In this document: piece by piece, positions 3,838 to 17,954 of the stretch
Layout of the letters: every line of letters begins with the position of its first letter
Position numbering within the stretch: position 1 is the first letter of the stretch
NCBI GenBank assembly: GCA_017405965.1
Contig: JAFQZK010000028.1
Span: 1 to 43,986 of the forward strand
DNA: 43,986 nt
Origin: Muribaculaceae bacterium
Lineage (GTDB): Bacteria; Bacteroidota; Bacteroidia; Bacteroidales; Muribaculaceae
Reading direction: 5' to 3'
The notes under the pieces: generated by a model
Databases searched by the model: none
Told to the model about the DNA's origin: nothing
Seen by the model: the letters and a program-made list of their open reading frames with translations, nothing else
Program-made: the position numbers and the translations under genes

Positions 3838-4488
3838 ATGATGGATGTGATTACACAGTATTTCAGTGATTTCACTTGGGTCAAAGCCATCGACATGGCG
3901 GGCCTGGTGCTGGGGCTCATCTATTTGTGGCTTGAGTTCAAAGCAAGCATCTGGCTATGGCTGGTGAGCATCATCATGCCCATCGTGCACGGCTATCTGT
4001 ATTGGGCACGCGGCCTGTATGCCGACTTCGGCATGGAGGTCTATTACGTCCTTGCTGCCGTCTATGGCTATGCCATGTGGCGCTGGGCACGCCGAAGTTC
4101 CCGAAATAAAGATGTAGAGACGCAAAATTTTGCGTCTCCCACCGAAGGCGAGCTTCCCATCACCCGCTTCCCCTTGCGGCAGGTGCTGCCTGTGGCAATC
4201 GTGGGTTTAGCCTTGTGGGGCATCATCTATTGGATATTAATCACGTGGACCGACAGTAGCGTCCCCGTGTGCGACAGCTTCACCACGGCGCTGAGCATGG
4301 TCGCCCTGTGGGCACTGGCTCAGAAGTATGCCGAGCAGTGGCTCTTGTGGCTCGTCGTTGACCTGGTATGCACCGTCCTTTACATCTACAAGCAGATTCC
4401 ATTCACTGCGGCCCTCTATGGCTTCTACACCGTCATGGCAGTGCTGGGCTACCGGTCATGGTTAAGGAAGATGACCGCGAGCCATTAG
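3838..4488 (+). CDS. pnuT: PnuC-family vitamin transporter, probable thiamin permease PnuT
   Basis: Inner-membrane permease of 216 aa with about seven hydrophobic helices and the Trp-rich PnuC character (LIYLWLEFKASIWLWLVSIIMP, AAVYGYAMWRW, KQIPFTAALYGFYTVMAVLGYRSW). PnuC proteins move unphosphorylated vitamins by facilitated diffusion coupled to intracellular phosphorylation. Thiamin rather than nicotinamide riboside is inferred from the TPP riboswitch upstream. The start is ATG at 3838 (a second ATG follows at 3841). A 22-bp perfect palindrome lies in frame in the loop after helix 3 and adds about ten polar residues (KDVETQNFAS). Confidence 0.85.
   Translation: MMDVITQYFSDFTWVKAIDMAGLVLGLIYLWLEFKASIWLWLVSIIMPIVHGYLYWARGLYADFGMEVYYVLAAVYGYAMWRWARRSSRNKDVETQNFASPTEGELPITRFPLRQVLPVAIVGLALWGIIYWILITWTDSSVPVCDSFTTALSMVALWALAQKYAEQWLLWLVVDLVCTVLYIYKQIPFTAALYGFYTVMAVLGYRSWLRKMTASH
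4117..4138. repeat. Perfect 22-bp palindrome inside pnuT
   Basis: GAGACGCAAAATTTTGCGTCTC is fully self-complementary and preceded by GATGTA. It keeps the permease frame open. Its form is that of a dispersed palindromic repeat rather than transporter coding sequence. Confidence 0.75.
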
Positions 4489-4538
4489 TCTGTAACTGCG
4501 TGGTTAGGTTCTCAATACCGATTTTCCAAAAGAATTAC

Positions 4539-4569
4539 TTGGTGGTAAAGAAGAAAAACTGTAATTTTG
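4539..4569 (+). promoter_or_regulatory. Promoter of the BspA-like gene
   Basis: TTGG (4539-4542), 19 nt, TAATTTTG (4562-4569). It gives a 5' leader of about 95 nt before the ATG at 4670. Confidence 0.6.
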
Positions 4570-4669
4570 CGATGTGATAATTCAGAAGCCATCACAAACC
4601 GTTGAATGATACCAATCAACCACGCATAGATTAAAATAAATCAAATACTAACCAATAAATAATGAAGAG

Positions 4670-5821
4670 ATGAAAAAGTTTTTAATGTTATTCGTGTCAA
4701 TTGCGGCAATGCTGCCAGCCAGCATGTCGGCCTACGACTTTAAGGAAGGCGACATCTACTATAATGTGGATGGCAATGAAGCCGCGGTGACCTTTGAGAT
4801 CGAAGGGGTGGGCAGCTACAGTGGCGACGTTGTGATTCCCGAGACCGTAGTCCACAATGGTGTGGAGTATGCCGTTACGGCCATTGGTTATAAAGCTTTC
4901 TTAAATTGCTATAATTTGACCAGCATCGAGATTCCCAACTCGATTGACAGCATTAGCTCTCACGCATTCAGGAGTTGCGAGAAATTGCAGAGTGTCGTTA
5001 TTCCCAATTCTGTCGTCACCTTGTACCCATGCGCTTTCCACTCGTGTACTGGCCTGAAATCGGTAGTGATAGGAAATTCGGTTCGCGTGATTGACGAGTA
5101 TTGTTTCCAGTATTGCTATCAGTTGACCGACGTGGTGATCGGTTCATCAGTGGAATATTTGGAAATCAAGGCTTTCTATGATTGCTATTCATTGCGGGAT
5201 GTTACCTGCCTGGCTATGACACCTCCTGCAATGTATGAATGGTACAGTTTTTATGATTACAATTATGAGAATGTTACAGTACACGTGCCGGCCAGTGCGA
5301 TGGATGCCTATAAGGCGGATCAGTACTGGGGCATGTTTAATCAATATGTTAGTCTGACCATGGCTACGGGGTTGACCCTTGACAAGTCGTTGGTTTCTCT
5401 GAATGGCGGTGAGCAGGTGCAGCTAACGGCTACTATAGAACCCGCCGATGCCATTAGCGCAGTGGAATGGACTACCAGCAACAGCAACGTGGCTATCGTC
5501 AATTCCAATGGCATGGTGACGGCTGTGGGTGCCGGGGAAGCTGTGATTACAGCTGCAACTCTTGACGGCTCGGGCCTGACGGCACAATGCGTCGTGCTCG
5601 TTGGCCTAACTAGTATTAAGGAGATGAACGCTGCTGTGCGTATCTATGCCCAAGGCGAGGACATCGTGGTGGTGACCCCTGTCGAGATGCCTGTTGAGTT
5701 CATCATGACTAACGGCATGAGCCGCACTGTCACTGCCAAAGCTGGCGTGAACGTTTATCCTGCAGGGCACGGTATCCACATCGTGCGTGCTGCCGGTCAA
5801 GTGGCAAAACTCAAAATCTGA
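4670..5821 (+). CDS. Secreted BspA-type leucine-rich repeat protein with Big_2 domain
   Basis: Cell-surface or secreted protein of 383 aa. A signal peptide (MKKFLMLFVSIAAMLPASMSA) is followed by BspA/LRR_5 repeats at about residues 60-200 (recurring FxxCxxLTSIEIPNSIxSI units), a bacterial Ig-like Big_2 domain at about 225-310 (LDKSLVSLNGGEQVQLTATI ... WTTSNSNVAIVNSNGMVTAVGAGEAVITA) and a C-terminal module ending in HIVRAAGQVAKLKI, which resembles a T9SS sorting tail. No enzymatic residues are seen; LRR_5 proteins typically act in adhesion. Both ends are closely similar to those of the 732-aa protein at 18824, which has about 350 extra residues before the tail. Confidence 0.85.
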   Translation: MKKFLMLFVSIAAMLPASMSAYDFKEGDIYYNVDGNEAAVTFEIEGVGSYSGDVVIPETVVHNGVEYAVTAIGYKAFLNCYNLTSIEIPNSIDSISSHAFRSCEKLQSVVIPNSVVTLYPCAFHSCTGLKSVVIGNSVRVIDEYCFQYCYQLTDVVIGSSVEYLEIKAFYDCYSLRDVTCLAMTPPAMYEWYSFYDYNYENVTVHVPASAMDAYKADQYWGMFNQYVSLTMATGLTLDKSLVSLNGGEQVQLTATIEPADAISAVEWTTSNSNVAIVNSNGMVTAVGAGEAVITAATLDGSGLTAQCVVLVGLTSIKEMNAAVRIYAQGEDIVVVTPVEMPVEFIMTNGMSRTVTAKAGVNVYPAGHGIHIVRAAGQVAKLKI

Positions 5822-5846
5822 AAATACTGATTCATAATGAAACCCG

Positions 5847-5881
5847 TGGCGGAATTTGGCAAGTGCATGCTGATTCCGCCA
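5847..5881. terminator. Hairpin between converging genes
   Basis: TGGCGGAAT (5847-5855) pairs with ATTCCGCCA (5873-5881): a 9-bp stem with a 17-nt loop, just past the LRR gene and before the end of the converging helicase gene. There is no T tract, so terminator function is uncertain. Confidence 0.4.
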
Positions 5882-7940: not shown

Positions 7941-8018
7941 TGTGTCGCCCCTGCGGGGCTAATTGTTATTGGTAATGCTCGTTGTTCACAGGGGTTCCGC
8001 TACGCTTCACCCCTGCCT
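7941..8018 (+). repeat. REP-like element, left copy
   Basis: Two hairpins in order: GCCCCTGCGGGGC, then AGGGG-ttccgctacgcttca-CCCCT, separated by a TAATTGTTATTGG-type spacer. The same architecture recurs at 8929-9007 (direct) and 8380-8463 (inverted), flanking the RAYT gene. Confidence 0.75.
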
Positions 8019-8020
8019 AT

Positions 8021-8386
8021 ACCCTTGTCGTCCCTTCGGGACTCTGGCCATGGTGTAGTTCGCCCGCTGGGGTGAAGCCCGTTAGGGCTGGTAAGGGTAT
8101 AGGCAGGGGGTGTACCCTTGTCGTCCCTTCGGGACTCTGGCCATGGCGTAGTCTTCCTGCTGGGGTGAAGCCCGTTAGGGCTGGTAAGGGTATAGGCAGG
8201 GTGCACCCTTGTCGTCCCTTCGGGACTCTGGCCATGGTGTAGTTCGCCCGCTGGGGTGAAGCCTGTTAGGGCTGGTAAGGGTATAGGCAGGGTGCACCCT
8301 TGTCGTCCCTACGGGACTCTGGCCATGGTGTAGTTCGCCCGCTGGGGTGAAGCCCGTTAGGGCTGGTAAGGGTATAGGCAGGGGTG
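8021..8386. repeat. Four tandem 91-93 bp palindromic repeats
   Basis: Near-identical units begin at 8021, 8114, 8205 and 8296, each starting ACCCTTGTCGTCCC and ending GTAAGGGTATAGGCAGGG. Each unit can fold: CCTGCCTATACCCTT pairs with AAGGGTATAGGCAGG, enclosing the smaller hairpins GTCCCTTCGGGAC and AGCCCGTTAGGGCT. Unit lengths of 91 and 93 are not a constant multiple of three, so the array is not a repeated protein. There are no unique spacers, so it is not CRISPR. Confidence 0.9.
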
Positions 8387-8463
8387 TAGTGAGGCGAAGC
8401 CGAACGAAACCCCTGTGATGTGTCATCACCCCACCCAATATTTAGCCCCGTAGGGGCGACAGT
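8380..8463 (-). repeat. REP-like element, inverted copy
   Basis: The reverse complement reads GTCGCCCCTACGGGGCTAA, a spacer, then AGGGG-tttcgttcggcttcgcctcactaca-CCCCT. This is the same two-hairpin layout as at 7941 and 8929. It ends one base before the RAYT stop codon. Confidence 0.7.
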
Positions 8464-8464
8464 A

Positions 8465-8914
8465 TTACAAATAACGTTCATCAAAATCTATTCCGTTAGC
8501 TATGAGAAAGGCTTTGTACTCATCCATAAATGTTCTTACTTTATGATGTTCCTCTTGATTGCGTATGTATTGAATCACCTTGGGCAAAACCGATGTACTT
8601 ACCGAGTAAGCGGCATATCCCTCTTGCCAAGCGAATGCTCCATAATAGTGAGGATTGATGGTTTTTATCCATCGGCTACTTTCACTTTTGACAGTTCTTA
8701 TAAAATCGGCAAGTGCCATGGTTTTAGGTAACGAACACAAGAGATGAACATGGTCGGACATTCCGCCAACTTCTATGAGTACAGATCCCATTCCCTTGAC
8801 TATACCTCCGATATATTTGTGGAGACGTGCAAGATCGTTGTCCAAAATGTCTGTAGTTTTGGCTTTGGTGTGGAAAATGATATGTAGGTCGTTCTTGACG
8901 TATGTGTTTGCCAT
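8465..8914 (-). CDS. REP-associated tyrosine transposase (RAYT, IS200/TnpA-REP family)
   Basis: Y1-HUH single-strand DNA transposase of 149 aa, the usual size for IS200-like TnpA. The HUH metal motif is HVH in GGMSDHVHLLCSLP. The catalytic tyrosine is expected in QYIRNQEEHHK. The conserved YGAFAWQEGYAAYSVS block is intact. RAYTs recognise and cleave REP palindromes; here REP-like hairpin pairs flank the gene in inverted orientation and a palindromic tandem array lies on its 3' side. The gene is full length and probably functional. No second ORF (TnpB) is present. Confidence 0.9.
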   Translation of the reverse strand: MANTYVKNDLHIIFHTKAKTTDILDNDLARLHKYIGGIVKGMGSVLIEVGGMSDHVHLLCSLPKTMALADFIRTVKSESSRWIKTINPHYYGAFAWQEGYAAYSVSTSVLPKVIQYIRNQEEHHKVRTFMDEYKAFLIANGIDFDERYL

Positions 8915-10498: not shown

Positions 10499-11590
10499 AT
10501 GAATGTGCACCAACAGCAACAACTGGAGTTGACTCGCGACTACGTCGAGCGCCTGAAGCATGAACACCCCTTGCGGGATCTGTTTTGGGAATGCACGTTG
10601 CGCTGCAACATGGCCTGCCGGCACTGCGGCAGCGACTGCCTCAAGGAGTCGATGGTGCCCGATATGCCCTTTGCCGACTTCCTGCCTGTGCTGGACGAGG
10701 TGGCGGCCCATTGCGACCCCAGGCAGGTGATGGTGCAGACGGTGGGCGGTGAACCGCTGGTTCGGCCCGACCTGATGGACTGCGGGCGAGTCATTCGCGA
10801 GCGGGGCTTCATGTGGGGATTGGTTACCAATGGACTCATCCTGGACCGCTCTGTCGCCCGCGAGATGGCTCAAGCCGGGATCACCTCGCTGTCCATCGAC
10901 GTGGACGGCTTGCGTGAAGAGCACAACTGGCTCCGCAATTCCAAGGTCAGCTTTGATGCCGCCATGCTGGCCATAGAGGCCGTGCAGACTATCCCGGGCC
11001 TCACTTGGGACGTGATTACCTGTGTCAACGGCCGTAATTTGTCCCAGTTGCCTGAGATCAAGAAACTGCTCATCGAGGCGGGCGTCACCCACTGGCGCTG
11101 CTTCACCATCGACCCGATGGGACGTGCTGCTCAAGACAAGAGCCTGCTGCTCACCGATGAGCAATTCCGCGACTTGCTCAACTTCATCGTCGCCACCCGC
11201 ATCGAGGGAAAAATCAACCTGAGTTATGCCTGTGACGGATTCATGGGTGCCTACGAGGGGCTCGTTCGCGATCATTTCTTCAATTGCCAGGCGGGGCTTA
11301 CTGTCGCCAGCGTGCGTGCCGACGGCGCCATCTCGGGTTGTCTGAGCATCCGCAGCGACTACAGCCAGGGCAACATTTACCAGGACAGCTTCTGGGACGT
11401 GTGGGAGAACCGCTTTGAGCAATACCGCAACCGCGAGTGGATGAAACGCGGCGCGTGCAAGGATTGTGAGGTCTTCCGCTACTGTCAGGGCGACGGTTTC
11501 CACCTGCGTGACGGCAATGGCGACCTGATGATGACTTGCCACTACAATCAACTCAAGAATGTCAAGATTCATGATTCTAAAGCTGAATAA
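10499..11590 (+). CDS. Radical SAM/SPASM-like enzyme, TIGR04133-type
   Basis: Probable peptide- or protein-modifying radical SAM enzyme, 363 aa. The [4Fe-4S] motif CX3CX2C is C36-C40-C43 in RCNMACRHCGSDC. GGEPL binds SAM. The C-terminal half has SPASM-like cysteines for auxiliary clusters (FFNCQAG, SGCLSI, GACKDCEVFRYCQGDG, MTCHYN). The pattern FWECTLRCNMACRHCGSDC with the tail NIYQDSFWDVWENRFEQYR is typical of TIGR04133, known from memory as the enzyme of the Bacteroidales 'rSAM/lipoprotein' system. No TIGR04134 lipoprotein partner is adjacent. Instead three tandem genes with a shared leader follow on the same strand. A 16-bp perfect stem overlaps the stop codon. Confidence 0.85.
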   Translation: MNVHQQQQLELTRDYVERLKHEHPLRDLFWECTLRCNMACRHCGSDCLKESMVPDMPFADFLPVLDEVAAHCDPRQVMVQTVGGEPLVRPDLMDCGRVIRERGFMWGLVTNGLILDRSVAREMAQAGITSLSIDVDGLREEHNWLRNSKVSFDAAMLAIEAVQTIPGLTWDVITCVNGRNLSQLPEIKKLLIEAGVTHWRCFTIDPMGRAAQDKSLLLTDEQFRDLLNFIVATRIEGKINLSYACDGFMGAYEGLVRDHFFNCQAGLTVASVRADGAISGCLSIRSDYSQGNIYQDSFWDVWENRFEQYRNREWMKRGACKDCEVFRYCQGDGFHLRDGNGDLMMTCHYNQLKNVKIHDSKAE

Positions 11591-11608
11591 CCGCTTTAGA
11601 ATCATGAA
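11568..11608 (+). promoter_or_regulatory. 16-bp perfect stem-loop over the radical SAM stop codon
   Basis: TTCATGATTCTAAAGC (11568-11583) pairs perfectly with GCTTTAGAATCATGAA (11593-11608) around a 9-nt loop that contains the TAA. There is no T tract. It may partly terminate transcription or block 3' decay, setting different levels for the enzyme and the downstream proteins (inference). Confidence 0.65.
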
Positions 11609-11643
11609 GTTTAGGGTTTAGGGTTTAGAGTTAGGAGTTCTAG
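11609..11643. repeat. Heptamer tandem repeat
   Basis: GTTTAGG, GTTTAGG, GTTTAGA, GTTAGGA, GTTCTAG: five degenerate 7-nt units directly after the stem-loop. Confidence 0.7.
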
Positions 11644-11696
11644 ATATTCTAGAAAAACTTGAAACTAGGGACTAGAAATTAAATAACAAAAAAGTT

Positions 11697-12383
11697 ATGA
11701 TGAAAGAAAAAAATAAAGGGAAAAAGACGCTCGCCGCGGTGGGTGCCGTGGTCGCTGCTGGGCTTACGCCAGGTATCATAGCCGCCAGCGCCGCAGGTAC
11801 GGCTCTCCAGGGCTCCAATGCTGGAATCACCGCTGCCGATGTGGTCGCTATTGACGGCACAACTTACAGTTTTGACGAATTATACGCCATGCAACGTGGA
11901 GAACCTATCGACACAATAGAGATGAACATCGTACTTGAACCAGATACAAGCATAGACTTAAAAGAGTTTACCGTCGTCGTAAAGTATGGTGTGCAACGGT
12001 TTGAACACAATGCAGCTAAGGCTGTTGGGAATGACGAGACTGTCTATATTAGTACTGATGTTGAGCAGATGCCCCAGTTCCCTGGTGGCGAGGTTGCCCT
12101 GATGAAGTACATCGACTCGCATATCAATTATCCTCCCGAGGCAGCCAAGAACAATGTTAAGGGTAAAGTCGTTGTGCAGTTTGTTGTGAAAAAAGACGGT
12201 AGTATAGGTGAGGTAAAGGTCCTGCGTTCGGTGGATAAGGACCTCGACAAGGAGGCCATCCGCGTTGTCAAGTCGCTACCCAAGTTCACTCCTGGCCGTC
12301 AACCCAAGTTCACTCATTGCAGTCAGAAAGGTCAAGCGGTGAACGTTTGGTACACGCTGCCTGTCACATTCAAATTGAAATAA
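11697..12383 (+). CDS. Leader-sharing secreted protein 1, TonB C-terminal-like domain
   Basis: 228 aa. The N-terminus (KNKGKK plus a hydrophobic run to about residue 31) is a signal peptide. It is followed by the segment AADVVAIDGTTYSFDELYAM, shared with the next two genes. A KYG motif lies at 96-98. The C-terminal ~100 residues (from VEQMPQFPGG) match the TonB C-terminal fold: INYPPEAAKNNVKGKVVVQF, then VVKKDGSIGEVKVLRSVDKDL, then EAIRVVKSLPKFTPGR. There is no transmembrane-anchored Pro-rich TonB N-terminus, so it is not a normal energy transducer. Its position behind the radical SAM gene suggests it is a modification substrate (inference). An alternative start is the second ATG at 11700. 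Confidence 0.8.
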   Translation: MMKEKNKGKKTLAAVGAVVAAGLTPGIIAASAAGTALQGSNAGITAADVVAIDGTTYSFDELYAMQRGEPIDTIEMNIVLEPDTSIDLKEFTVVVKYGVQRFEHNAAKAVGNDETVYISTDVEQMPQFPGGEVALMKYIDSHINYPPEAAKNNVKGKVVVQFVVKKDGSIGEVKVLRSVDKDLDKEAIRVVKSLPKFTPGRQPKFTHCSQKGQAVNVWYTLPVTFKLK

Positions 12384-12421
12384 GGGAAAACAGGAACGGC
12401 AAAAGGGCTTTAAACCCAGAT

Positions 12422-12454
12422 AGCGTATTTAGGTCTAAAAGCGTATAATACGCT
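12422..12454 (+). promoter_or_regulatory. Hairpin in the spacer between leader-sharing genes 1 and 2
   Basis: AGCGTATT (12422-12429) pairs with AATACGCT (12447-12454). The right arm also belongs to the palindrome AGCGTATAATACGCT (12440-12454). The next spacer has an equivalent hairpin and related sequence, TAAACCCA followed by GCGTATT and GTCTAAA. Confidence 0.55.
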
Positions 12455-12462
12455 ACAACATC

Positions 12463-13095
12463 ATGATGAAAGACAAAAATAAAGGAAAAAAGGCGCTCGC
12501 TGTTGTGGGCGCTGTGGTTGCTGCCGGGCTTACGTCGGGTATCGTTAATGCCTCGCCTGTTCAGGGCTCCAGTGTGGGAATCACCGCTGCCGACGTGGTG
12601 GCCATGGACGGCACGGCTTACAGTTTTGACGAGTTATACGCCATGCAACGAGGTGACACTGTGGATATGCAAGTTGAGCTGCCTGAAGTCCAGATTGATG
12701 CAATGCCGCAGGCTACAAAGTATGGTGCCCGAATACAATATTATCCGAGCAATGATAAGCCTACGGCACCAGAAAGTAAAACTGTCTATCGTTCCGTTGA
12801 ACAGATGCCCCAGTTCCCGGGTGGCGAGGCTGCACTGATGAAGTACCTCAAATCTCACATCAATTATCCTCCCATGGCTGCCATGAACGATATTCAGGGT
12901 AATGTCATTGTGCAGTTCGTTGTGAATGAGGACGGTAGTGTGGGGGAGGTGAAGGTTGTACGCTCGGTGGATAAGGACCTTGACCGGGAGGCCATCCGCG
13001 TCATCAAGTCGTTGCCCAAGTTCACGCCCGGCCGTCACAAAGGCAAAGCCGCGAGCGTATGGTACACGCTGCCTGTGCCTTTTAAACTAAATTAG
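12463..13095 (+). CDS. Leader-sharing secreted protein 2, TonB C-terminal-like domain
   Basis: 210 aa, a tandem paralogue of the preceding gene. It has the same KNKGKK signal peptide, the same AADVVAMDGTAYSFDELYAM block (about 42-61) and a KYGAR motif at 86-90 in a variable linker. A TonB C-terminal-like domain runs from about 112 (VEQMPQFPGGEAALMKYL) to the end. The linker between the shared block and the domain differs strongly from protein 1, while the leader and domain are conserved, so the linker is diversifying. The protein is probably periplasmic or surface located after cleavage near NA/SP (about 30). No lipobox is present. Confidence 0.8.
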   Translation: MMKDKNKGKKALAVVGAVVAAGLTSGIVNASPVQGSSVGITAADVVAMDGTAYSFDELYAMQRGDTVDMQVELPEVQIDAMPQATKYGARIQYYPSNDKPTAPESKTVYRSVEQMPQFPGGEAALMKYLKSHINYPPMAAMNDIQGNVIVQFVVNEDGSVGEVKVVRSVDKDLDREAIRVIKSLPKFTPGRHKGKAASVWYTLPVPFKLN

Positions 13096-13129
13096 GAAAT
13101 AATGGGGTAGAGTGTTAAACCCAAATGGC

Positions 13130-13155
13130 GTATTATAGTCTAAAGAGTATAATAC
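13130..13155 (+). promoter_or_regulatory. Hairpin in the spacer between leader-sharing genes 2 and 3
   Basis: GTATTATA (13130-13137) pairs perfectly with TATAATAC (13148-13155). It is the counterpart of the hairpin at 12422, which suggests gene and spacer were duplicated together and the pairing kept. Confidence 0.55.
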
Positions 13156-13170
13156 ACTAAAGCCATTATC

Positions 13171-13806
13171 ATGAAGAAAGACAAAAATAAAGGAAAAAAG
13201 TCGCTCGCTGTGGTGGGTGTAGTGGTCGCTGCAGGACTTTCATCGGGCATCCTTAACGCCACTCCACAATGTGCACCTGTTCAGAACCCCAATGCTGCAC
13301 TCACTGCTGCCGACGTGGTCGCCATCGGCGGCACAGCTTATAGTTTTGACGAATTATACGCCATGCAGCAACGGGCCGACGGTATGAAGCAGGCACGAGA
13401 CCGACGACAAGGACCACAAGCTTCAAGGTATGGTGCACCAAGCCAATATAGTCAGCCTGCCGCAAAGTATGGTTCACCACACTCTCAACCCTATGTGATT
13501 GTCACTCCTGATATGGCCTTAGACACGATCCAAGAGGGCCTCAAAGATTTCTGTGCCCAACTGCTTGATGCCGACCCTTATACCAAGGGTGCCGTTTTCA
13601 CGCTTGACAGCGACTTGACTCGTGAACTGGAAATGAGTGAATCCCAATTGAAGGAACTTAAGGCATTCATCGAGGAATACTATGGTGTAGAAGTGTCACA
13701 CCATCGTTTCCGCCTTAAGGGCCAGCTCAACACCCTGCGTCTCATTTCAGAGTACATCTACAAGTTGAAATCCGTTTGGGACCGACCCGAAATAGAACCT
13801 TACTGA
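13171..13806 (+). CDS. Leader-sharing secreted protein 3 with a different C-terminal domain
   Basis: 211 aa. Residues 1-66 repeat the leader of the two preceding proteins, including AADVVAIGGTAYSFDELYAM. The linker carries two YG motifs, SRYGAPSQY (86-93) and AKYGSPHSQ (99-106), and is rich in Gln, Ser and Pro. The C-terminal ~95 residues are not TonB-like: they form a helical segment with TLDSDLTRELEMSESQLKEL, then KAFIEEYYGVEV and a final helix. The spacing recalls acyl-carrier proteins (acidic DL, a Ser before helix II, EE-FGVEI), but this is weak and a secreted ACP would be odd. The function is unknown. It is last in the presumed operon. Confidence 0.7.
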   Translation: MKKDKNKGKKSLAVVGVVVAAGLSSGILNATPQCAPVQNPNAALTAADVVAIGGTAYSFDELYAMQQRADGMKQARDRRQGPQASRYGAPSQYSQPAAKYGSPHSQPYVIVTPDMALDTIQEGLKDFCAQLLDADPYTKGAVFTLDSDLTRELEMSESQLKELKAFIEEYYGVEVSHHRFRLKGQLNTLRLISEYIYKLKSVWDRPEIEPY

Positions 13807-15823: not shown

Positions 15824-16747
15824 ATGAAAAAGACATTGCTTCATACAACCCTGTTTGGCCTTCTCCTCTTGTTGCCGACAGCGGCGGGTGCTTTCGACTT
15901 CGAGGTCGATGGGATTTTCTACAACATCAATAGCGATAATGCCTCGGTATCGGTAACCTACGAAACCACCGCTTTCAGAACCTATACTGGGAATGTGGTC
16001 ATCCCCGACACTGTGACACACAATGGTGTTGACTATCCTGTTACAGCTATCGGCAACAGTACCTTCTTTTACTGCTATGACATGACCAGTGTGACAATCC
16101 CTAACACGGTCACCTCGATAGGGTATTATGCCTTCTCGGGTTGTGCCCAATTGACCGAAATCATTCTCCCCGAAACGCTCGTCAGCATCGGGAACTGTGC
16201 GTTTGAGAATTGCCATGGCTTGACCGAGGTCGTGATTCCGGATGCTGTTACCACCCTTGGGCAGGACCCCTTCTTCAACTGCCGTCAACTGGAACGTGTT
16301 GTTATCGGTCGTTCAGTCAGTTCCGTCGGAAGCTTTCTTTTCAGCGGCTGCACTAAGTTGTCAAGTGTGACCTGCTGGCCAACAACCCCTCCCGCTTGCC
16401 ATGCTGCGTTATTTATTCACTACGACGTGTATGCCAATGCTACGCTGCATGTTCCGCCCGAATCGCTTGATGCCTACCAAGCGGCTATGTTCTGGAAGGA
16501 ATTCTCCCAGATCGTTGGAGATGCAACAGTTGGCATACCTGGCGATGTGAATGGTGATGGCGAGGTAACCGTTGCCGATGCCAACAACACCATTCACATT
16601 ATTATTAATGGAGGTGGCAGTGGCGGCCATTCCCGCGTGCCTGGCGATGGAGATGAGCGCCCCGTTATTGGTGACGTCAACGGCGACGGCGAGGTCAACA
16701 TCGCCGACATCAACGCCATCATCGATTACATCCTCGGGAATGCGTAA
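15824..16747 (+). CDS. Secreted BspA-type LRR protein with dockerin-like tail
   Basis: 307 aa. It has a signal peptide (LLHTTLFGLLLLLPTAAGAF), LRR_5/BspA repeats at about 55-190 (MTSVTIPNTVTSIGYYAFSGCAQL-type units) and two EF-hand-like dockerin repeats near the end: GDVNGDGEVTVADANN (about 241-256) and GDVNGDGEVNIADINA. They are split by a glycine-rich insert of about 20 residues (GGGSGGHSRVPGDGDERP). The repeats have the D-x-N-x-D-G Ca2+-loop pattern of type I dockerins, which bind cohesins. No catalytic domain is present. The next gene has the same design and an almost identical 3' end. Confidence 0.85.
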   Translation: MKKTLLHTTLFGLLLLLPTAAGAFDFEVDGIFYNINSDNASVSVTYETTAFRTYTGNVVIPDTVTHNGVDYPVTAIGNSTFFYCYDMTSVTIPNTVTSIGYYAFSGCAQLTEIILPETLVSIGNCAFENCHGLTEVVIPDAVTTLGQDPFFNCRQLERVVIGRSVSSVGSFLFSGCTKLSSVTCWPTTPPACHAALFIHYDVYANATLHVPPESLDAYQAAMFWKEFSQIVGDATVGIPGDVNGDGEVTVADANNTIHIIINGGGSGGHSRVPGDGDERPVIGDVNGDGEVNIADINAIIDYILGNA

Positions 16748-16823: not shown

Positions 16824-17954
16824 ATGAAGAGATTACTGTTTATCACCCTATTAATAACATATGCCTCACTGGCAGGACATGCCGTCATCGAGGTTGACGG
16901 TGTGTTCTATAATACCTATTGGGCCGGTTCGCACCAAGAGGCTATGGTCGTTGTGGGCGACACCTATGATCAAGACAAGGAGATCAACTATACAGGCTTG
17001 GTTCACGCCAACATCCGCGACAGTGTCTCTTTTGATGGAACCACCATGCTGCCTGTCTCCAAAATTGGCTGGGTTGCCTTTCAATGGGCTACCGACCTTG
17101 AAGAGGTCACTATCCCCAATACGGTTAAAATCATCGACGAGGCGGCATTCAACCTGTGTCCCAAATTGCGCAGCATCACTATCCCCAACAGCGTTGTCAC
17201 CATCGAGGAATGGGGCATTGCCCACAACGAGTCACTCAGGGAACTGCATCTGGGCAGCGGAGCGGTCAATTTGGACAACTGCGCCATTGTGGGCAATACA
17301 GCCCTCGAAGTCATTACCGTTGACGAGAACAACCCCGTCTATGACTCGAGAAATAATTGTAATGGCATCATCACAACGGTGAACAACAGCATGGTCCATG
17401 ACCGGCACATATTGTTCACGGCCTGCTCACGCACAGTCTTGCCTCGGGAGGTGACATGGATTGCACGCGGTGCTTATCAACATCAAGGTATCACCATGGT
17501 CATTCTGCCTGCCCAGATTACCAATCTTGAGTATACCTGCTTTGAAGGATGTGAATATCTGACCGAGATTTACAACTTCAGCCATGATCCACAGGGCTGC
17601 ATGAGTACCACTTTTGAAGACTACCATTACGAGAACTGCACATTGTATGTTCCGCGTGGCACTAAAGAAATCTACGAGCAAGTTCCCGTCTGGGGGTCTT
17701 TCAGGCATATTGAGGAGTTTGATGCCACCACGATTATCCCTGGTGACGTCAACGGCGACGGCGAGATTACCGTTGCCGATGCTAACAACACCATTCACAT
17801 TATTATAAATGGTGGTAGCAGTGGCGGCCATTCCCGAGTACCCAACCCTGATGGTGGCGGATGGATCAACATTAACGACGTGAATGGCGACGGCGAGGTC
17901 AACATCGCCGACATCAACGCCATCATCGATTACATCCTCGGGAATGCGCATTAA
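16824..17954 (+). CDS. Secreted LRR protein with dockerin-like tail
   Basis: 376 aa, paralogue of the preceding gene and 76 nt behind it. It has a short signal peptide (LLFITLLITYASLAGHA), about four LRR_5 units (LEEVTIPNTVKIIDEAAFNLCPKL, LRSITIPNSVVTIEEWGIAH), a longer middle part with ENNPVYDSRNNCNGII typical of BspA proteins, and a dockerin-like tail with two GDVNGDGE/NDVNGDGE loops separated by a GGSSGGHSRVP linker. The final 57 nt before the stop region are identical to those of the preceding gene, while the rest is diverged, so the tail is exchanged or conserved as a module. It is probably cotranscribed. Confidence 0.85.
   Translation: MKRLLFITLLITYASLAGHAVIEVDGVFYNTYWAGSHQEAMVVVGDTYDQDKEINYTGLVHANIRDSVSFDGTTMLPVSKIGWVAFQWATDLEEVTIPNTVKIIDEAAFNLCPKLRSITIPNSVVTIEEWGIAHNESLRELHLGSGAVNLDNCAIVGNTALEVITVDENNPVYDSRNNCNGIITTVNNSMVHDRHILFTACSRTVLPREVTWIARGAYQHQGITMVILPAQITNLEYTCFEGCEYLTEIYNFSHDPQGCMSTTFEDYHYENCTLYVPRGTKEIYEQVPVWGSFRHIEEFDATTIIPGDVNGDGEITVADANNTIHIIINGGSSGGHSRVPNPDGGGWININDVNGDGEVNIADINAIIDYILGNAH

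Follow-up and report, generated by a model that had tools for sequence, protein, structure and literature searches.

TIGR04133 radical SAM enzymes and their xYG-bearing partner proteins in Bacteroidales: a candidate envelope splicease system

Splicease-type enzymes and the window locus

The splicease PlpXY excises tyramine at X-Tyr-Gly sites, with a mass change of −135.0757 Da and with MYG and LYG as its natural sites. It needs no leader of the kind found in ribosomally synthesized and post-translationally modified peptides (RiPPs): a ten-residue PlpA2 core suffices, in PIRPGYGLPI tags, and a PlpA2-derived GYG tag, GGPIRPGYGLPI, is accepted at the C-terminus of an affibody (PMC10533398). A second source gives the plp class as IPR026482 with a Nif11/NHLP gene set (PMC11002830), and in two others the products, spliceotides, are called protease inhibitors (PMC11117315, PMC10373908). 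Here we describe a locus of a Muribaculaceae bacterium in which a radical SAM/SPASM enzyme of the family TIGR04133 is followed by three partner proteins with YG sites in their linkers. It lies in a stretch of 43,986 nucleotides (assembly GCA_017405965.1, contig JAFQZK010000028.1, positions 1 to 43,986, forward strand), called the window below. With moderate confidence, we read the partners as substrates of the TIGR04133 enzyme that are recognised through a shared block and modified at xYG(xP) before export, most likely by a tyramine-excising splicease.

The enzyme gene (10499..11590, plus strand) matches TIGR04133 at 503.6 bits (cut-off 425), Pfam Radical_SAM at 68.3 bits and SPASM at 33.6 bits. 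As the original prediction described, it is followed on the same strand by three open reading frames (ORFs), partner 1 (11697..12383), partner 2 (12463..13095) and partner 3 (13171..13806), and the successive gaps are 106, 79 and 75 bases. All three share one layout. A Lys-rich and hydrophobic, signal-like N-terminal segment (best 15-residue hydropathy 1.94–2.26) leads into the block TAADVVAxxGTxYSFDELYAMQ; K/R-Y-G lies in the divergent linker after it, and a C-terminal domain ends the protein. The three proteins are probably exported. Their leaders had been called nearly identical; measured against partner 1 over a 69-column alignment, identity is 80% for partner 2 and 64% for partner 3. The putative recognition blocks read TAADVVAIDGTTYSFDELYAMQ in partner 1 (11829..11894), TAADVVAMDGTAYSFDELYAMQ in partner 2 (12583..12648) and TAADVVAIGGTAYSFDELYAMQ in partner 3 (13303..13368). 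The [KR]YG motifs reported for the linkers are all present, namely KYGVQ in partner 1 (KYG at 11982..11990), KYGAR in partner 2 (12718..12726), and RYGAP and KYGSP in partner 3 (13426..13434 and 13465..13473), the latter two having Pro in fourth place.

YG sites and the block beside the enzyme

The YG site is conserved in the linkers. An N-terminal profile, for which the training proteins were required to have YG and which is biased in that respect, gave 59 partner ORFs from the window and loci L053–L132. A YG within 110 residues past the block is present in 56 of the 59, compared with 12.3 expected on shuffling (54 were counted by script, and two regex misses, window partner 2 and L111, both KYGAR, were corrected by eye); the other three are truncated ORFs. 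The stricter pattern YG.{1,2}P was surveyed in 114 loci, 112 of them with the enzyme, which excluded the short loci L001–L013 and L044–L052, the repeats L133–L135, and L136 and L140–L142, and in which L014–L043 span only ~4 kb and have short flanks. Of the 319 ORFs that lie up to 1.2 kb from the enzyme and on its strand, 115 have the pattern, compared with 52 of 735 other ORFs and 10 of 319 shuffled ones; some matches are chance occurrences in housekeeping genes (for example the 734–735-residue ORFs in L059, L104 and L117). At least one ORF with the pattern lies within 1.2 kb in 85 of the 112 enzyme loci.

The association extends beyond the window's own scaffold. Among 20 loci chosen by hand across the order and inspected by eye, 16 have an xYG partner no more than 200 bases from the enzyme. 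In 15 the site is YGxP, and in 13 a Cys-Tyr-Gly stands at an apparent lipobox cysteine; L173, L184, L186 and L187 have no xYG partner within that distance, and L186 and L187 score below the family cut-off. The YGxP-type motifs that the original prediction ascribed to partner lipoproteins also proved real, with CYGMP (L137) and EYGSP (L138) in TIGR04134 lipoproteins and, by eye, EYGTP in a similar protein of L139. We consider the YG site well supported as the proposed place of enzyme action. That the YG sites are unmodified structural features of extended Pro-rich linkers, such as a docking motif, seems very improbable to us: Pro does often follow YG, in Pro-rich stretches, but YG.{1,2}P is enriched near the enzyme, and YG is also found right at the apparent lipobox Cys of short lipoproteins. 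At L129 the usual place of the partner is taken by a 615-residue ORF, kinase-like by eye, which starts 54 bases past the TIGR04133 gene and has MYGGP before a hydrophobic segment.

The block is tied to the enzyme as well. Searching 397 genomes of the taxonomic family with a model of the leader, made from the three window sequences and liable to overlook distant versions in other genera, gave 58 copies. They come from 38 genomes, all in the window's genus. A leader found widely in places with no radical SAM gene nearby had been set in advance as the refuting case. It was not borne out: in these 397 genomes, 54 of the 58 copies lie on the same strand, 0–1845 bases downstream of a TIGR04133 gene. 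In genome G242, two copies lie at a contig edge where a remnant of the enzyme end (query 325–357, 33 residues, 85% identical) still matches. The sole real exception, and a point that weighs against our reading, is genome G232 (locus L111, which overlaps L135): in a window-like neighbourhood both partners keep block and YG, an unrelated 214-residue ORF (4363–5007) stands ahead of them, and the search of the genome gave no TIGR04133 gene. Natural loss of the enzyme is the likely explanation.

The block, which is conserved in relatives, also bears the mark of selection. Between the three window copies, its 22 residues show differences at 36–42% of synonymous sites but at 4% of non-synonymous ones (pS 0.36–0.42, pN 0.04), and among 33 FDEL-type blocks the mean differences are 51% and 15%, the non-synonymous value being the lower in 524 of 528 pairs. 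Such low non-synonymous relative to synonymous change indicates that the protein sequence of the block is held by selection, beyond what chance or recent copying would give. At L109 the block (EITAADEVQID) is kept ahead of CLYGPP and the usual signal segment is absent, which fits a block separable from the signal segment and would be consistent with a recognition element distinct from export. We set aside the idea that the leader is a mere signal peptide, since the block comes after the signal-like segment, is subject to purifying selection and is retained at L109. The wider version of that idea, in which the N-terminal segment is only a duplicated signal or anchor unit and the enzyme next to it has some other target, is improbable. 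It would suit the tandem repetition of the segment and the enzyme-less G232, but it leaves unexplained the 54 copies just downstream of the enzyme, the purifying selection on the block, and the occurrence of xYGxP beside the enzyme on unrelated scaffolds.

Relations of the enzyme and candidate chemistry

TIGR04103, which we take to be the enzyme class of PlpX, is the next-best family of the window enzyme after TIGR04133. A Nostoc TIGR04103 enzyme adjoins a precursor of the Nif11 type (68.4 bits against a cut-off of 32.3) that ends in ALYGLPPELF, and the gene set of its locus resembles the one described for plp in PMC11002830. Within the order of the window, but in another family, a TIGR04103-like enzyme at L164 is followed by a protein (4455–5099) with six KYGYP sites, possibly a multi-site spliceotide precursor. 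A 165-residue neighbour of a TIGR04103-like enzyme at L162 (4119–4616) ends near LLYGTPPV, which a similar 158-residue neighbour at L161 lacks, and at L160 a TIGR03913-like enzyme is followed by small peptides resembling DUF1843 with PYGVAVR and LYGVGIR. The motif I[RHNK]L[LMV]YG, which is in register with IRP[GL]YG of the PlpA2 tag, is present in 12 of the 59 partners; the pattern was picked after the likeness had been noticed, and the 12 are mutually related.

In a tree of 31 radical SAM proteins, the TIGR04133 enzymes (12 rows, 100/100) cluster with the TIGR04103- and TIGR03913-like rows, apart from AhbD-like, TIGR04053, MftC and TIGR04347 proteins and one row from the window's own genome; two further own-genome radical SAM rows, L003 and L004, were excluded beforehand. 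A search of PDB sequences with the enzyme returned ten radical SAM entries, the best at 52 bits, and no whole-protein match of high similarity. TIGR04133 is found in 95 of the 397 genomes of the taxonomic family (94 over the cut-off; 10 of 30 genera). In a sample of 295 genomes from the order, 69 have it (61 over the cut-off).

From the gene order, the tie between block and enzyme, the conservation of YG and the likeness of the motif to splicease-type substrates, all of which are observed, we infer modification by the enzyme and the following course. In the cytoplasm, the TIGR04133 enzyme would recognise the TAADxVxxDG... block, which follows the signal-like segment, and would act at one or two xYG(xP) sites of the nearby linker. 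Excision of tyramine at YG would leave an alpha-ketoamide, and the modified partner would then be exported or anchored in the membrane, with its TonB or ACP-like (acyl carrier protein-like) domain on the far side. If so, the window products would carry Lys- and Arg-derived ketoamides, and they may display an electrophile as a protease-inhibitor warhead. Since spliceotide products are called protease inhibitors, inhibition of a trypsin-like protease is one guess at their role, and a covalent bond to some other component of the envelope is a second.

A less probable alternative, which we nevertheless regard as the most serious one, is that the enzyme acts at YG with other chemistry, such as a Tyr-centred cyclophane or another change to Tyr or the backbone. 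The same site evidence applies to it, SPASM enzymes carry out many reactions, and TIGR04133 forms a separate, long-branched clade whose aligned rows lack one SPASM cysteine. The xYGxP context, however, resembles that of splicease substrates. Enzymes that form three-residue cyclophanes (triceptides) act on aromatic-X-X and need a beta-carbon on the third residue. YGV, YGA and YGS of the window would allow one, but in the YGGP sites of relatives (12 YG contexts counted) the residue two after Tyr is Gly, which would speak against a cyclophane there.

Beside G232, several observations weigh against the splicease reading. With regard to the sites, 27 of the 112 enzyme loci lack a YG.{1,2}P partner up to 1.2 kb away. 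The window's clade accounts for six of them, one being the window itself, whose YGxP partner lies beyond that distance. Fourth-place Pro is absent at two of the four window sites, and the I[RHNK]L context at all four. PlpXY accepted only two of 16 listed FtsZ tag constructs and neither of the two LYG versions among them (PMC10533398). PlpXY is independent of a leader, so that nothing in that system corresponds directly to the block. With regard to the enzyme, its match to TIGR04103 is 136.2 bits, far from the cut-off of 725, so that the two families are not the same, and in Parabacteroides and Treponema members of TIGR04133 the families TIGR04053, AhbD and NirJ2 outscore TIGR04103; the reaction is therefore not derivable from homology alone. 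The support for the cluster in the tree is 93/89, below the starred mark, TIGR04133 is long-branched, and most TIGR04103-like rows had been selected through their TIGR04103 score. One SPASM cysteine of the Nostoc TIGR04103 enzyme is absent in three aligned TIGR04133 rows. Finally, the TIGR04103-like loci L161, L163, L165, L166 and L167 showed no xYGxP neighbour, and phmmer with one Nostoc query gave no match to a PlpY-like protein at an E-value of 10 among 12,208 segments of 112 loci.

Cargo domains and neighbouring genes

The original prediction gave the partners two TonB-like C-terminal domains and a third, unrelated one, and the first part of this stands. Partners 1 and 2 match PF03544 (TonB_C) at 74.9 bits (12120..12377) and 77.2 bits (12856..13089), above the cut-off of 24.6. 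Partner 3 has no Pfam match above cut-off, PF00550 included. Its domain (13531..13773) is nonetheless not an unrelated fold: an hhalign comparison of eight domains of this type with eight ACP-type partner domains gives a probability of 94.9 and an E-value of 4.7e-8. In four tested relatives, PF00550 recognises an ACP at the same place (45.3, 42.8, 38.8 and 38.0 bits); a fifth and degenerate relative tested, L070, is not matched by PF00550. Together, the profile match and the recognised ACPs indicate that the third cargo is a decayed ACP, in which Glu stands where the phosphopantetheine Ser of the DSL motif is expected. An AlphaFold model of partner 3 had a mean pLDDT (predicted local distance difference test) of 37.8 and was not used. 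As read from the sequences, then, one leader stands before an ACP, a decayed ACP or TonB_C in different genes. At L089, two partner genes (5115–5387 and 5672–5854) are apparently broken just past the block, and their TonB_C-like parts lie in separate open ORFs.

The gaps before partners 2 and 3 contain a 30-base repeat of 83% identity (window 12410–12439 and 13115–13144), so that the duplication probably covered the upstream region as well as the gene. A promoter scan gave 4 sites (2.9 expected) and a terminator scan 1 (4.0 expected). Elsewhere in the window are ORFs whose translations are repeats (~7980–8440, by eye), an IS200-like transposase (8465–8914; PF01797, 85 bits), and a BspA-type leucine-rich-repeat protein with dockerin repeats (15824–16747), which is followed by an ORF of similar appearance (16824–17954, by eye only).

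Wider reach and comparison with known systems

The finding may be taken beyond the window, to an order-wide envelope splicease in which TIGR04133 excises tyramine at xYGxP of exported proteins and lipoproteins, with modular fusions of block and cargo in the window's Prevotellaceae-like genus; for this broader proposal we regard the evidence as evenly balanced. In the modular system, one block would be joined to exchangeable end domains (ACP, dead ACP or TonB), and the partners would display Lys or Arg ketoamides in linkers across the periplasm. Where Cys-Tyr-Gly stands at an apparent lipobox, the mature lipoprotein would begin with a lipidated beta-cysteine ketoamide. If correct, this would account for TIGR04133, a named family without an assigned function, and would place ketoamide electrophiles in envelope proteins of many bacteria of the order. 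It would also provide a candidate portable recognition block, together with naturally occurring substrates that are folded and apparently exported.

In the literature searched, neither the association of TIGR04133 with xYGxP across several scaffolds nor the leader with its interchangeable TonB or ACP cargo had a match. That search, which Scott et al. 2022 lies outside, gave no text with "TIGR04133" and no title or abstract start naming the system. The title of that paper, in Chem, reportedly already names peptides and proteins. The paper comes from a group behind PlpXY, and PMC10533398 credits it with 939 predicted splicease systems besides 27 other characterized ones; with so many predictions a prior description of the TIGR04133 system is quite possible.

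Compared with PlpXY, the window locus likewise has a radical SAM/SPASM enzyme beside xYG(xP) precursors, and 12 of the 59 partners share a similar upstream context. It differs in the family of its enzyme by score, in that no PlpY-like protein was found, and in having no Nif11/NHLP leader, these families being absent among the profile matches of the three window partners. In addition, window-type substrates look exported or membrane-bound and have folded end domains. With the TIGR04133/TIGR04134 system the window shares the enzyme family and the YGxP motif, but its partners have the recognition block and TonB_C or ACP-like domains; no protein of its own genome passes the TIGR04134 lipoprotein cut-off (best 15.5 bits, cut-off 39.8). 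A second TIGR04133 type in the genus also has xYGPP sites in the gene adjoining the enzyme. There, by eye, the partners are short VYGPP lipoproteins that lie upstream, have ~80–140 residues and usually two to three sites, and lack the block and the end domain. TonB energy transducers, finally, have TonB_C in common with partners 1 and 2, and it is the shared leader and the YG linker that set the window partners apart from them.

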